From Candidatus Saccharimonadota bacterium (lineage in GTDB: Bacteria > Patescibacteriota > Saccharimonadia > Saccharimonadales > Saccharimonadaceae): a stretch of DNA of 64,000 bases. Shown here in pieces: positions 22,616 through 26,614 of the stretch. The notes beneath the pieces were generated by a model. It saw only the letters and a program-made list of their open reading frames with translations, had not been told where the DNA came from and did not search any database. The DNA is taken from NCBI GenBank assembly GCA_028289065.1, contig JAQGHA010000016.1, forward strand, positions 1 to 64,000, given 5' to 3'. Within the stretch, counting starts at the first letter, position 1. Every line of letters starts with the position of its first letter. Made by a program: the position numbers and the translations under genes.

Positions 22616-22703
22616 GGAGAGGTGCAGGAGTGGTTGAACTGGCCGCTCTCGAAAAGCGGTGAGCCGCAAGGTTCCGAGGGTTCGAATCCCTCCCTCTCCG
22701 CCA
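22616..22703 (+). tRNA. tRNA-Ser, anticodon CGA
   Basis: A class II tRNA: acceptor GGAGAGG/CCTCTCC, anticodon loop CTCGAAA giving CGA, long variable arm, T-loop TTCGAAT, discriminator G, CCA encoded. Confidence 0.96.
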
Positions 22704-22808
22704 AGTGGTGAATTTTTACTTTGAATTTATGGTTACAATTTGCTATTGTTATGTACATAGAACATAAGCGCAAATGATGGCAATAATTGCCGAAAGACGG
22801 GGGCTCAT

Positions 22809-23945
22809 ATGGGATTTGGTAGTGGAGGTAGCGGAGGCAGCAGTGTTGCTGGTTCTAATGATGTTGCGTTAAGTAACCCAGCGAATACGGAAGTTCTTTC
22901 CTACGATTCAGCCACTTCTAAATGGAAGAATGCTGCGACCATCACTCCAGCATCTCTCGACCTAAAGGCACCTCTTGAGTCACCGGCTTTCACCGGTACG
23001 CCAACTGGTATTACAAAAGCGCACGTCGGTTTAGGGAGTGTTGATAATACTTCCGATGCTGCTAAGCCTGTTTCGACAGCCACCCAGACTGCGTTAAACA
23101 CAAAACAAGACACATCTGCTAAGGGTCAGGCAAACGGTTACGCTTCTCTTGATGGTTCGACGTTAGTTCCTCGTACCCAACTTGGTACCGGCACGCCAGA
23201 TGGAACAAAAGTGCTATACGGTGATGGTACTTGGGCAGTTCCAGCGGCTACCGCTGCACCTGTCCAATCTGTAGCTGGTAAAACCGGCACAGTCACACTT
23301 GTAAAAGGTGATGTCGGCCTCGCAAATGTGGATAACACGGCTGACTCTGCGAAACCAGTTTCAACCGCTACTCAATCTGCGCTTGACCTCAAGGCGCCAC
23401 TCGCCTCACCTGCCTTTACTGGTACTCCAACCGGAATTACGAAAAACCACGTTGGGCTAAATAATGTGGATAATACATCCGACATTAGCAAACCAATTTC
23501 TAGCGCTACTATAAACGCACTCGACCTTAAGGCTCCAATTCTTAACCCCTCCTTTACTGGTCAGGTTGGTGGTGTGACTAAAGCTCATGTTGGTCTTGGA
23601 AATGTCGATAATACATCGGACGCAAATAAACCGATTTCCGCTGCAACTCAAACCGCTTTAACAGGTAAGGCCTCTACGATTCACTCTCATTCCGCAACTG
23701 ATGTTACTTCTGGTGTATTTAGTACCGCACGCTTACCAGCTGCAACCGATACTACTGTCGGTGTAGTAGAACTTGCTACAACAGCGGAGGTAGTGACTGG
23801 AACCGACACCATTTTAGCTGTCACTCCTGCAGGTGTTAAGGCTGCTGTAACCGCTTCCCTACATCCAGTAGTATTTATAAATACTCTTGGGGACTTGCCT
23901 GCAGGTACTCCAGTTGACACACTTGTGGTAGTAAGGGCGGCTTAA
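22809..23945 (+). CDS. Phage minor-tail/tail-fibre-like repeat protein
   Basis: This is a 378-aa protein. Four repeats of a VGLxNVDNTxD module (about residues 73, 169, 215 and 261), each followed by KPxSxATxxAL, match the collar-like repeats of phage tail fibres and actinophage minor tail proteins. The C-terminus (SGVFSTARLPAATDTTVGVV, then ELATTAEVVTGTDT and AVTPAGVKAAV) is also typical of tail fibres. There is no signal peptide. GGGGG precedes the ATG by about 5 nt. It abuts the next phage-like gene. No capsid, terminase or other phage genes are present, so this looks like a captured tail module, perhaps used for host attachment. Confidence 0.75.
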   Translation: MGFGSGGSGGSSVAGSNDVALSNPANTEVLSYDSATSKWKNAATITPASLDLKAPLESPAFTGTPTGITKAHVGLGSVDNTSDAAKPVSTATQTALNTKQDTSAKGQANGYASLDGSTLVPRTQLGTGTPDGTKVLYGDGTWAVPAATAAPVQSVAGKTGTVTLVKGDVGLANVDNTADSAKPVSTATQSALDLKAPLASPAFTGTPTGITKNHVGLNNVDNTSDISKPISSATINALDLKAPILNPSFTGQVGGVTKAHVGLGNVDNTSDANKPISAATQTALTGKASTIHSHSATDVTSGVFSTARLPAATDTTVGVVELATTAEVVTGTDTILAVTPAGVKAAVTASLHPVVFINTLGDLPAGTPVDTLVVVRAA

Positions 23946-26200
23946 TGGCCGCTCCTGTTTTTGGTGGCGTAACCACACTTCGTACTACTTCTAATTCTCC
24001 AGTGTTAAGTATTAGTTCGGTTTCTACTGGTGGCTGGATGATAGTGTCCGCGATGGCATCGGTAAGTTCTACTGTGGTCACAGCTCCTAATGGTTGGACG
24101 GTATTACACACACCTGAGATATCAGGATCTCGCAAAAATTATTTGTTTGCAAAGGTTAAAGATGTTTCCGATGGCTCGTCTGTAACATTTTCACAAAGTG
24201 CAGTAGATACGACTGCATATAGTCTCAGCTGGGGCACGGGAAGTGGTGATATAAGTACCTGGACGATTGGCGCGAGTTGGATACGAACATCGAGTTTACA
24301 GGCGAGCGGCTCACGCACAAACAGTATCGCAAAAAGTATTACGACACCGTCGAACGATCAATTAGTATTGGCTATATCGCATGAGGCGACTAACCTTAAG
24401 TCGGTTCCAATGGAAGTAACAGGTATTAATCCAAGTGGTTGGACACAGCGATTATGGCTTGAGCAAGTAGCGCCTAGTGATAATGTTGAAACCATCTGGA
24501 TTGGTTCAAAAGATATGACTACAGCCGGAAGTACAGGTGACCTTACCCTTACCTATGCTAGTCCGCAAGATGCCAATGGCTGGACAATCCAGCTAGCTAT
24601 CTCTGCGCCTACTTCAACTCCACCGGCGGCAGCTCCGGAAATTATTGGCACACCGGTTAACTTTTCTAGTAATGCCGTCCTTGATACATTTACGATTAAT
24701 CATCCTACGGGCGTGGTTCAAACGGGGGATTACATTATCGTTACCATTCGAGGTCAGTATGCATCTGCAACTGCCGAACCTTCAAGCTCTAACTTTACTC
24801 GGTTAGGTGCTGCTTTTGTGCCCTCAAGTAGCGACTCGAGAGTGCATGGTATTTACGGTAAGGCTGTAACAGATGCATCAACTGAACCGTCATCATATAC
24901 ATTTACCGTACTAAACAATAATAACCGAATGGTGGCTACCTGCTTTGTCGTGCGCGGTGTTGATCTAGTCAACCCTGTAGGCGGTTTTAGTAATAGTTAC
25001 TCTGGTACTGCACTAGGATCGGCGAGGCGCGTAGAAAGCTATGCTCCCAACGCCATTCCTATCCTTAGTTTATTCGTAGGAAGCTCAGAATTTGGTTCAC
25101 CAGATGACCATACACCAACGTCCTATCCATCTGGATACACTGAAGTAGCAAACGTTACGACAAGTACCAATACAGCCGTTTCACGAACCTATATGTGGGT
25201 TGGTAAAAGAACTATCACTCAACCTCCTGTTGCTGCAGCAGAGATACAGTGGAGTGTTACATCTGGAAGTGGCGCAGAAGGAATTGCCTTGAGAGGAACA
25301 GGATCGACGTTACCAGAACCAGCAGGCAATGGTATTAGCGCTCGCGATGGAAACGGCAATGTTACCAAGGTGTATTACAAAACCGCCAGCGGCGCTAAAA
25401 CCCCAAGTGCGTTAATTCCAATGCGCCGAGGTTTTAGTACTGTCCAAGAAATGCTGGCTAAACCTGGCTTCACCTGGGCACACCGTGGTGGATCAGGAAA
25501 TTATCCCGAAATGTCGCTTTATTCATACACGCAATGTGTTGCACTTGGCTATGGGGTATTAGAAATTTCCTTAGCGCGTACTAGCGACGGTGTCTGGTTC
25601 GGTTTACACGATCAAACAACTGACCGCACCTCTGGCGGAACATTTGGAAATGCTTCTTCGCAAACTTGGGCGCAAATTCAAGCTCAACAAAATAATACCG
25701 GAGCTCAAGGCGCGCCAAAACCATATATGCGTTGGGAAGAATTGATTGCTAACTACGGAAATAGCCATATTATCGTGGCTGACCCTAAATATGCACTCGC
25801 CTCGTACCGTGTCGAATTCTTGAATATGGTGAACCGTGACCTTGGCCCAACTCGAGCAATTATTAAGTTTAGCGGGTCAGGTTCGGGTGCCGTCTTCTTA
25901 AGTAACGCCGCTAAAGCCATGGGCTTTGAAACCTGGGGCTTTTTCTACGCAGTTGACGCGTCGGCTGCTCAAGGCGGAAACGGTAACTTGCAAACCTGGG
26001 GAGCTGATTGGACGTTGATTGGTATGGAATATACCGCTTCTCAAGCTATTTTCAATGAAGCCTTAGCCTTCGGAAAGCCAGTCATTGCTCATATTATTCC
26101 GAACCAAGCAGGATATGATTCAGCGATCGCCAAGGGTGCGGTTGGTGGCCAAATTAGCCACGTTGCTAACGTTGCCCCTGTTTCATGGTGGACGCCTTAA
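23945..26200 (+). CDS. Phage-tail-like protein with C-terminal glycerophosphodiesterase (GDPD) domain
   Basis: This is a 751-aa protein. The first ~480 residues are Ser/Thr-rich beta domains (GWTVLHTPEISGSRK, VDLVNPVGGFSNSYSG), like tail adhesin modules. Residues about 505-751 are a GDPD TIM barrel: WAHRGGSGNYPEMSLYSY with the catalytic HR, LEISLARTSDGVWFGLHDQT with the conserved E and H, and a terminal ISHVANVAPVSWW. GDPD-bearing minor tail proteins occur in actinophages. No signal peptide. It starts one base before the end of the previous gene, so the two are coupled. It may bind or cleave teichoic-acid-like glycerophosphodiesters on an actinobacterial partner; that role is inferred. Confidence 0.75.
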   Translation: MAAPVFGGVTTLRTTSNSPVLSISSVSTGGWMIVSAMASVSSTVVTAPNGWTVLHTPEISGSRKNYLFAKVKDVSDGSSVTFSQSAVDTTAYSLSWGTGSGDISTWTIGASWIRTSSLQASGSRTNSIAKSITTPSNDQLVLAISHEATNLKSVPMEVTGINPSGWTQRLWLEQVAPSDNVETIWIGSKDMTTAGSTGDLTLTYASPQDANGWTIQLAISAPTSTPPAAAPEIIGTPVNFSSNAVLDTFTINHPTGVVQTGDYIIVTIRGQYASATAEPSSSNFTRLGAAFVPSSSDSRVHGIYGKAVTDASTEPSSYTFTVLNNNNRMVATCFVVRGVDLVNPVGGFSNSYSGTALGSARRVESYAPNAIPILSLFVGSSEFGSPDDHTPTSYPSGYTEVANVTTSTNTAVSRTYMWVGKRTITQPPVAAAEIQWSVTSGSGAEGIALRGTGSTLPEPAGNGISARDGNGNVTKVYYKTASGAKTPSALIPMRRGFSTVQEMLAKPGFTWAHRGGSGNYPEMSLYSYTQCVALGYGVLEISLARTSDGVWFGLHDQTTDRTSGGTFGNASSQTWAQIQAQQNNTGAQGAPKPYMRWEELIANYGNSHIIVADPKYALASYRVEFLNMVNRDLGPTRAIIKFSGSGSGAVFLSNAAKAMGFETWGFFYAVDASAAQGGNGNLQTWGADWTLIGMEYTASQAIFNEALAFGKPVIAHIIPNQAGYDSAIAKGAVGGQISHVANVAPVSWWTP

Positions 26201-26224
26201 TACCTCCAGTAGTACCATAGAGGT

Positions 26225-26614
26225 ATGCAAGATTCTATTTTCACGAAAATTATTAAGGGAGAAATCCCTAGCCATAAAGTGTATGAAGACGAAAAGACTT
26301 TGGCTTTTCTAAGTATCTACCCTTCTGTTATTGGCCACACCCTAGTTATTCCTAAAATTCAGGTTGAAACATTATGGGATTTACCCTCTGAAGACTATTT
26401 GGCTGTTATGCGAACTGCTCAAAAAGTCGCCTTGCGGCTTAAGGAAGTGCTTGGTGTTGAACGGGTTGGGGAAAAAGTTATTGGTCTCGACGTTCCTCAC
26501 GCGCACGTTCATCTTGTTCCGTTTACTGCACCAGAAGAATATTATGCCAAAGAAACAACCGATGAACCAGATTACGCTGCCCTTGCAGCCTTATCTGAAC
26601 GTTTGAAGTTTTAA
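26225..26614 (+). CDS. HIT-family nucleotide hydrolase/transferase
   Basis: This 129-aa protein has the histidine-triad motif HAHVHLVPF (about 97-105) and the N-terminal FTKIIKGEIPSHKVYED typical of bacterial HIT proteins, which hydrolyse AMP-linked nucleotides. No ribosome-binding site is visible; the start is 7 nt after a weak -10-like TACCAT. rlmH follows 9 bp downstream. Confidence 0.92.
   Translation: MQDSIFTKIIKGEIPSHKVYEDEKTLAFLSIYPSVIGHTLVIPKIQVETLWDLPSEDYLAVMRTAQKVALRLKEVLGVERVGEKVIGLDVPHAHVHLVPFTAPEEYYAKETTDEPDYAALAALSERLKF

Follow-up and report, generated by a model that had tools for sequence, protein, structure and literature searches.

Phage-type fibre genes in a saccharibacterial genome and their association with the Tat system

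Apart from type IV pili and a small number of adhesins, little is known of how ultrasmall epibionts recognise their hosts and attach to them (PMC11665869, PMC12206443). We analysed a stretch of 64,000 nucleotides from a Candidatus Saccharimonadota bacterium of the family Saccharimonadaceae (assembly GCA_028289065.1, contig JAQGHA010000016.1, positions 1 to 64,000; hereafter the window), in which an initial annotation had described two adjacent genes, encoding a tail-fibre protein with VGLxNVDNTxD repeats and a protein with a glycerophosphodiesterase (GDPD) domain. Open reading frames (ORFs), Pfam and PHROG agree with this description: gene A (ORF1, 22809-23945) encodes a 378-residue tail-fibre-like adapter and stalk, and gene B (ORF2, 23945-26200) a 751-residue effector; these and all window features below lie on the forward strand. 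When the N-termini of both proteins were inspected by eye, neither a signal peptide nor a twin-arginine signal was observed. How, then, would fibres without a signal reach the cell surface? The strong genomic association of a second type of fibre adapter, type b, with the twin-arginine translocation (Tat) system offers a candidate answer. We suggest that the pair may be one of several scattered loci for fibre proteins of phage descent that the cell would display on its surface.

Fibre adapters and the Tat system

The genome that contains the window carries at least eight fibre loci, six of type a and two of type b, counted by searches of the genome rather than by end-to-end reading; loci on contig C6 sit among ribosomal-protein genes (G, C and L are our labels for genomes, contigs and loci). 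The type-a adapter, recognized by alignment and genome search, forms residues 1-42 of ORF1 (22809-22934; DVxxxxPxxxxVLSYDxxTxKWxN). One of its six copies (C6:101738-101863) has an in-frame stop and is possibly decaying. At a locus on C14 (L064:10197-16576), a type-a gene of 136 residues precedes two genes for GH81 beta-1,3-glucanases (E 7e-86 and 5e-78), which lack signal peptides and possibly act on fungal glucan. Of 295 genomes of the family, 32 contain repeats like those of ORF1, and seven, this one included, contain substantial matches to ORF2. Gene A precedes gene B in all pairs read. Effector B follows type-a adapters (the window, clean405), a type-b adapter (G029) or a type-b adapter with a collagen-like stalk (G034, MAG32 and others), and the adapters therefore look interchangeable. 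The initial annotation had seen a captured tail module: the phage origin is supported, but not a single capture, given the eight or more loci here and the many in relatives.

The type-b adapter (consensus MxRLPxPGxDxGxWGxILNDYLxxxHxxDGTLK) caps fibre N-termini and is found in 78 of the 295 family genomes, in up to 20 copies per genome. TatC is found in 77. The two coincide in 72 genomes, with 6 having the adapter only, 5 TatC only and 212 neither (phi 0.90, uncorrected p 5e-55). Within the genus of the window, type b is present in all nine genomes with TatC and in none of the eight without it. The same trend is observed elsewhere in the phylum: of 104 genomes beyond the own-genus pair already counted, 6 have both, 1 has the adapter alone, 4 have TatC alone and 93 lack the two (p 9e-7). 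Among the six genomes with type b but no TatC, two are fragmented assemblies in which the mini-protein described below is present (G070, G217); in G045 the adapter is fused to the last 35 GDPD residues, the enzyme being deleted; the type-b gene of G065 is frameshifted and lies in a lepA-hrcA-grpE-dnaK locus, where other genomes carry tat genes; the match in G102 is marginal; and the sixth is G115. All seven genomes with substantial GDPD-protein matches have Tat. Only three genomes in the family sample yielded full-length type-a adapters, and each of them has Tat; at three loci type-a genes cluster with type-b genes; together with the interchange of adapters, this suggests that type a may also follow the Tat route.

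We rejected the possibility that type b is a general actinophage domain, with significant matches in 6 of 50,697 phage records (Streptomyces phages) and in no plasmid. In the Streptomyces phages BRock and GiJojo (L209, L210), divergent adapter-b proteins lie in dense tRNA arrays, away from structural genes; no YG motif (see below) was found in the neighbours read of the Streptomyces-phage matches.

In most loci read, tatC is adjoined by a gene for a mini-protein of ~70 residues with a Tat-like motif, whose distribution over the 295 family genomes matches that of TatC with phi 0.956. All 41 distinct mini-proteins contain RxxFL, 40 a hydrophobic segment and 37 a YG-type C-terminus, typically GYGxSxYGG. 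In at least 10 genomes (G153, G048, G123, G155, G080, G081, G176, G098, G037 and G028) a type-b gene starts no more than 300 bp from the mini-protein gene, and the arrangement of mini-protein, type-b adapter and tatC recurs in other families. The co-occurrence of the three is near-perfect and accompanied by operon linkage. In the genome of the window, tatC, tatA and a mini-protein gene are on C14 and a second mini-protein gene is on C4, none being beside the window pair itself; the ordinary Tat signal model PF10518 gave no match at E<=10 in this genome. The NCBIfam model NF038009 (TatB_1) matches the mini-protein with E 2e-15 and 56.7 bits, below its curated cut-off of 100. Two further arrangements were observed. 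In G147 (C63:1985-4419) the mini-protein gene lies between two tandem tatC-like genes. At L144 (14346-16000) a second mini-protein class, ending in GFGSSKFG, immediately precedes the gene of a divergent fibre with adapter b (MAQQRLPIVNSDDGVWGDILRQYL), as if mini-proteins and adapters formed paired lineages.

The terminal YG peptide of the mini-proteins has a counterpart in phages. We scored the pattern [YF]G.[GSAN]x[YF][GNS] in 26 type-b fibre contigs from IMG/VR. Of 49 same-strand ORFs adjoining the fibre, 17 contain it, against 5 among the 314 remaining ORFs (p 1.7e-12); a control set of 22 phage-related loci without type b gave 2 of 327 ORFs. In the adjoining ORFs the motif is near one end, no more than about 14 residues from the C-terminus or 20 from the N-terminus. 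PHROG and Pfam mostly found no match for these ORFs, the exceptions being one virion structural match and one to DUF2460, which we take to be a phage tail family. A YG motif is also present on a small protein with an N-terminal YGxGxY and an LPxTG-like C-terminal anchor, encoded in the genome of the window (L141:9090-9353) and at Tat loci of relatives (L068, L143, L150, L152, L245, L276, L278); this protein is unrelated to the mini-protein and, among the loci scanned, occurs at Tat loci only. In the simplest reading of these sequences, YG would be what the adapter docks on, and these bacteria would have transferred it from the tail of a phage to mini-proteins exported by Tat and to wall-anchored ones.

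The gene pair and its insertion site

ORF1 has no match in Pfam but belongs by sequence to phage tail families: 42 PHROG families match it (best E 7.5e-57), minor tail and tail fibre families among them, as do 681 phage records, chiefly of Gordonia, Mycobacterium and Arthrobacter phages. Its translation and the PHROG stretches delimit a region (23025-23609) with four repeats, VGLGSVDNTSD, VGLANVDNTAD, VGLNNVDNTSD and VGLGNVDNTSD. Comparison with other gene A proteins revealed a conserved C-terminal tail (23868-23942; ..GDLPAGTPVDTLVVVRAA). This tail, PxGTPxDTLVVV(R), is common to the gene A partners that precede a GDPD gene, both in Saccharibacteria and in phages, and a similar PxGTPxDTLVVV tail also ends gene A in phage or actinobacterial contigs.

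ORF2, delimited by the ORF list, Pfam, PHROG and phage records, comprises three parts. Domain 1 (residues 1-225; 23945-24619) is beta-rich, and this genome, G007, G041 and G045 encode type IV pilins that are headed by its homologues; we therefore consider it extracellular, and a role in binding is suggested. One of these pilins is encoded on C1 of the same genome (79402-80490; L002) and others at L028, L011 and L013; the C-terminal heads of the four are homologous to domain 1 (E 2e-16 to 2e-19), a phage-type domain carried on pili. Domain 2 (229-465; 24629-25339), delineated from an AlphaFold2 model and relatives, is a beta-sandwich and a putative binding domain. The third part (505-747; 25457-26185) is a GDPD TIM barrel, supported by Pfam, alignment, Foldseek and the AlphaFold2 model, which has a mean predicted local distance difference test (pLDDT) score of 67 and is reliable in this part only. 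PF03009 matches residues 513-601 (E 4.3e-10, 40.6 bits versus a gathering score of 23.6), the phosphodiesterase family phrog_17803 covers 253-744 (E 2.8e-80), and residues 500-747 of the model match GDPD structures of TIM-barrel fold with E about 1e-11. Top Foldseek matches are the phi812 central spike and phage K gp155, which belong to a contractile phage baseplate, as well as GlpQ and other GDPDs. GlpQ hydrolyses teichoic acid of the glycerol-phosphate type and leaves the cell by means of its own signal peptide. Nine residues (H513, R514, E522, E540, S542, H555, D613, K615 and K641) are invariant across 16 ORF2 relatives. They include the catalytic histidine pair H513/H555 and the metal ligand E540; the Asp of the ExD metal site is Ser542 in all 16.

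The relationship to actinophages that had been proposed at the outset is supported. Both proteins match phage families, mostly from phages of Actinobacteria (85 phage records match ORF2, chiefly of Microbacterium phages), and the same A-B gene order is found in phages, with gp32 followed by the GDPD protein gp33 in Huwbert and gp27 followed by the tailspike gp28 in Lifes. The nearest homologues are not ordinary surface proteins. The nearest relative of ORF2 itself is from no actinophage; it is a 60% identical protein of another Saccharibacterium (G029), and the closest named relatives are from Candidatus Saccharibacteria metagenome-assembled genomes.

The two genes are intact and co-directional, and ORF2 starts on the last base of ORF1 (TAATG type), so it is probably translated by coupling. 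They are flanked by housekeeping genes, namely tRNA-Ser(CGA) (22616-22703, ARAGORN), which marks the insertion point, and genes for HIT, RlmH (rlmH), valS and a DUF4190 protein. As the initial annotation had noted, no phage genes were found among the neighbours examined; likewise, the GDPD pairs of G029, G008 and G110 sit between housekeeping genes with no prophage around. The order tRNA-Ser(CGA)-HIT-rlmH is kept within the genus. Four of ten same-genus genomes (G158, G105, G143, G090) have nothing between tRNA and HIT, and the remaining ones have other genes or an altered arrangement; the pair is therefore an insertion polymorphism beside the tRNA. More broadly, what is inserted in the interval (window 22616-26225; L265-L274) varies within the genus, and several relatives have different cargo genes there. 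Site-specific integration was rejected, since neither an integrase next to the pair nor an att-like copy of the tRNA end was found. A recent transfer from an actinophage was also rejected, on the saccharibacterial affinity of ORF2 and a GC content of 46-48%, matching the neighbours.

A candidate display route and its alternatives

We propose that gene A would be a fibre stalk with an N-terminal docking adapter, and gene B a tip joined to the conserved C-terminal tail of A, carrying putative binding domains and a glycerophosphodiesterase like that of GlpQ and phage spikes. Folded in the cytoplasm and lacking a signal peptide, such fibres would dock on the mini-protein, which combines the putative Tat motif (RxxFLK), one hydrophobic segment and the C-terminal YGxSxYGG, the peptide that in phages appears to mark a tail protein beside type-b fibres. 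The complex would hitchhike through TatAC and remain anchored, the fibre perhaps being passed to wall- or membrane-anchored proteins with the YGxGxY motif. Outside the cell, the fibre would bind the actinobacterial host and cleave glycerol-phosphate polymers of the teichoic-acid type; that ORF2 binds and trims such a polymer we infer from its structural matches, its active-site residues and the pilin heads. We lean slightly towards this account of surface-displayed, Tat-hitchhiking fibres that bind or trim the host. Its generalization, a dedicated Patescibacteria system in which a mini-protein bearing a phage-tail YG peptide exports and holds interchangeable folded receptor-binding fibres, we regard as evenly balanced. 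Several observations weigh against the proposed account of the pair. The adapter of the window is of type a, and its link to Tat is indirect; G117 has TatC and type b, yet no mini-protein was detected there; an adjacent YG motif is absent in 9 of the 26 type-b phage contigs; and with Ser in place of Asp as second metal ligand, the substrate and activity of ORF2 are unproven. The co-occurrence counts are, moreover, not corrected for phylogeny.

This last point bears on a different explanation, in which both traits could be driven by an environmental lifestyle or by the size of the genome. Saccharibacteria of the environment, whose genomes are larger, would keep Tat for other cargo and also have acquired fibres, which would exit through type IV secretion or lysis or stay inside. 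Among the genomes listed, those without Tat are often smaller, and Starr et al. (2018), who found Tat exceptional in Saccharibacteria, reported four genes with a TAT motif in one Saccharibacterium; a lysyltransferase gene and an MFS transporter gene are among the four, as are two of unknown function (PMC6031116). We nevertheless consider confounding unlikely, because the association holds within the genus of the window and outside the family, the adapter genes are physically linked to tatC, and the YG peptide is common to phage tail genes; the genome of the window shows no PF10518 signal, and the fibre genes of the Tat-less G045 and G065 are broken. The mini-protein could also be part of the Tat machinery and carry nothing, as the name TatB_1 suggests, in which case fibres would not be its cargo and the YG likeness would be convergence of low-complexity sequence. 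The NF038009 match favours this, at a score little more than half its cut-off; but YG is strongly enriched, and mostly terminal, among phage neighbours, and it recurs on the second, unrelated anchored protein. This makes a TatB-like role alone improbable in our view, somewhat more so than confounding.

Two further explanations concern the fibres themselves. They could be inert or selfish debris, prophage or satellite fragments at tRNA sites with no function for the cell, as might be expected from the insertion at a tRNA-Ser hot spot, its absence from relatives and the type-a copy with a stop. Yet the coupled ORFs are intact, the active-site residues are invariant, and the copy numbers per genome and the Tat association also speak against it; we hold this to be very unlikely. 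The initial annotation had proposed that an actinophage tail tip is reused to pierce the host. The homology to actinophage fibres and spikes agrees with such a tip, but no tube, sheath, baseplate, hub or injection gene was seen at the loci examined (the whole genome was not screened for these families), and we give piercing hardly any credence.

Relation to known systems and implications

A GDPD on a phage tip protein is already known from the phi812 central spike and phage K gp155 (PDB 9eul, 9f5m), which are among the top structural matches of ORF2; here no phage structure was seen at the loci examined, and the fibre partner is another one. Similar in arrangement is Microbacterium phage Huwbert, in which a fibre gene likewise precedes the GDPD gene (ORF2 has 37% identity to gp33 over 66% of its length), as well as vB_MoxS-R1 gp68 (phrog_17803; 43% over 63%), but these genes are inside phage genomes, where no link to Tat or a mini-protein was seen. 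Bacillus subtilis GlpQ (PDB 5t9b) shares the fold and differs at the metal site, where ORF2 has Ser542 for Asp. Tailocins and extracellular contractile injection systems are also bacterial uses of domesticated phage tail parts; near the fibre loci examined here, by contrast, no tube, sheath or baseplate was seen, and the proposed export is by Tat instead of lysis.

For the export step, Escherichia coli PaoABC is a precedent of ternary Tat hitchhiking, in which folded partners without signals cross on one signal-bearing subunit (PMC4273604). The route proposed here would differ in that the carrier would be a dedicated mini-protein with many cargoes and a short docking peptide. NF038009 describes the mini-protein family as a "twin-arginine translocation system-associated protein", with no fibre link in the description shown. 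Literature searches for a link of Saccharibacteria to fibres or to Tat found none.

If this hypothesis is true, it would explain why Tat is kept in only about one in four of the 295 genomes searched in the family. It would define a short peptide-domain docking pair and a new, tail-less domestication of phage fibres by cells. The epibiont cell would itself resemble a phage particle, its repertoire of adhesins and enzymes setting the host range, and its receptor-binding proteins of phage type, a defined set that can be counted and for which an export route is proposed, would provide direct candidates for host-range determinants.

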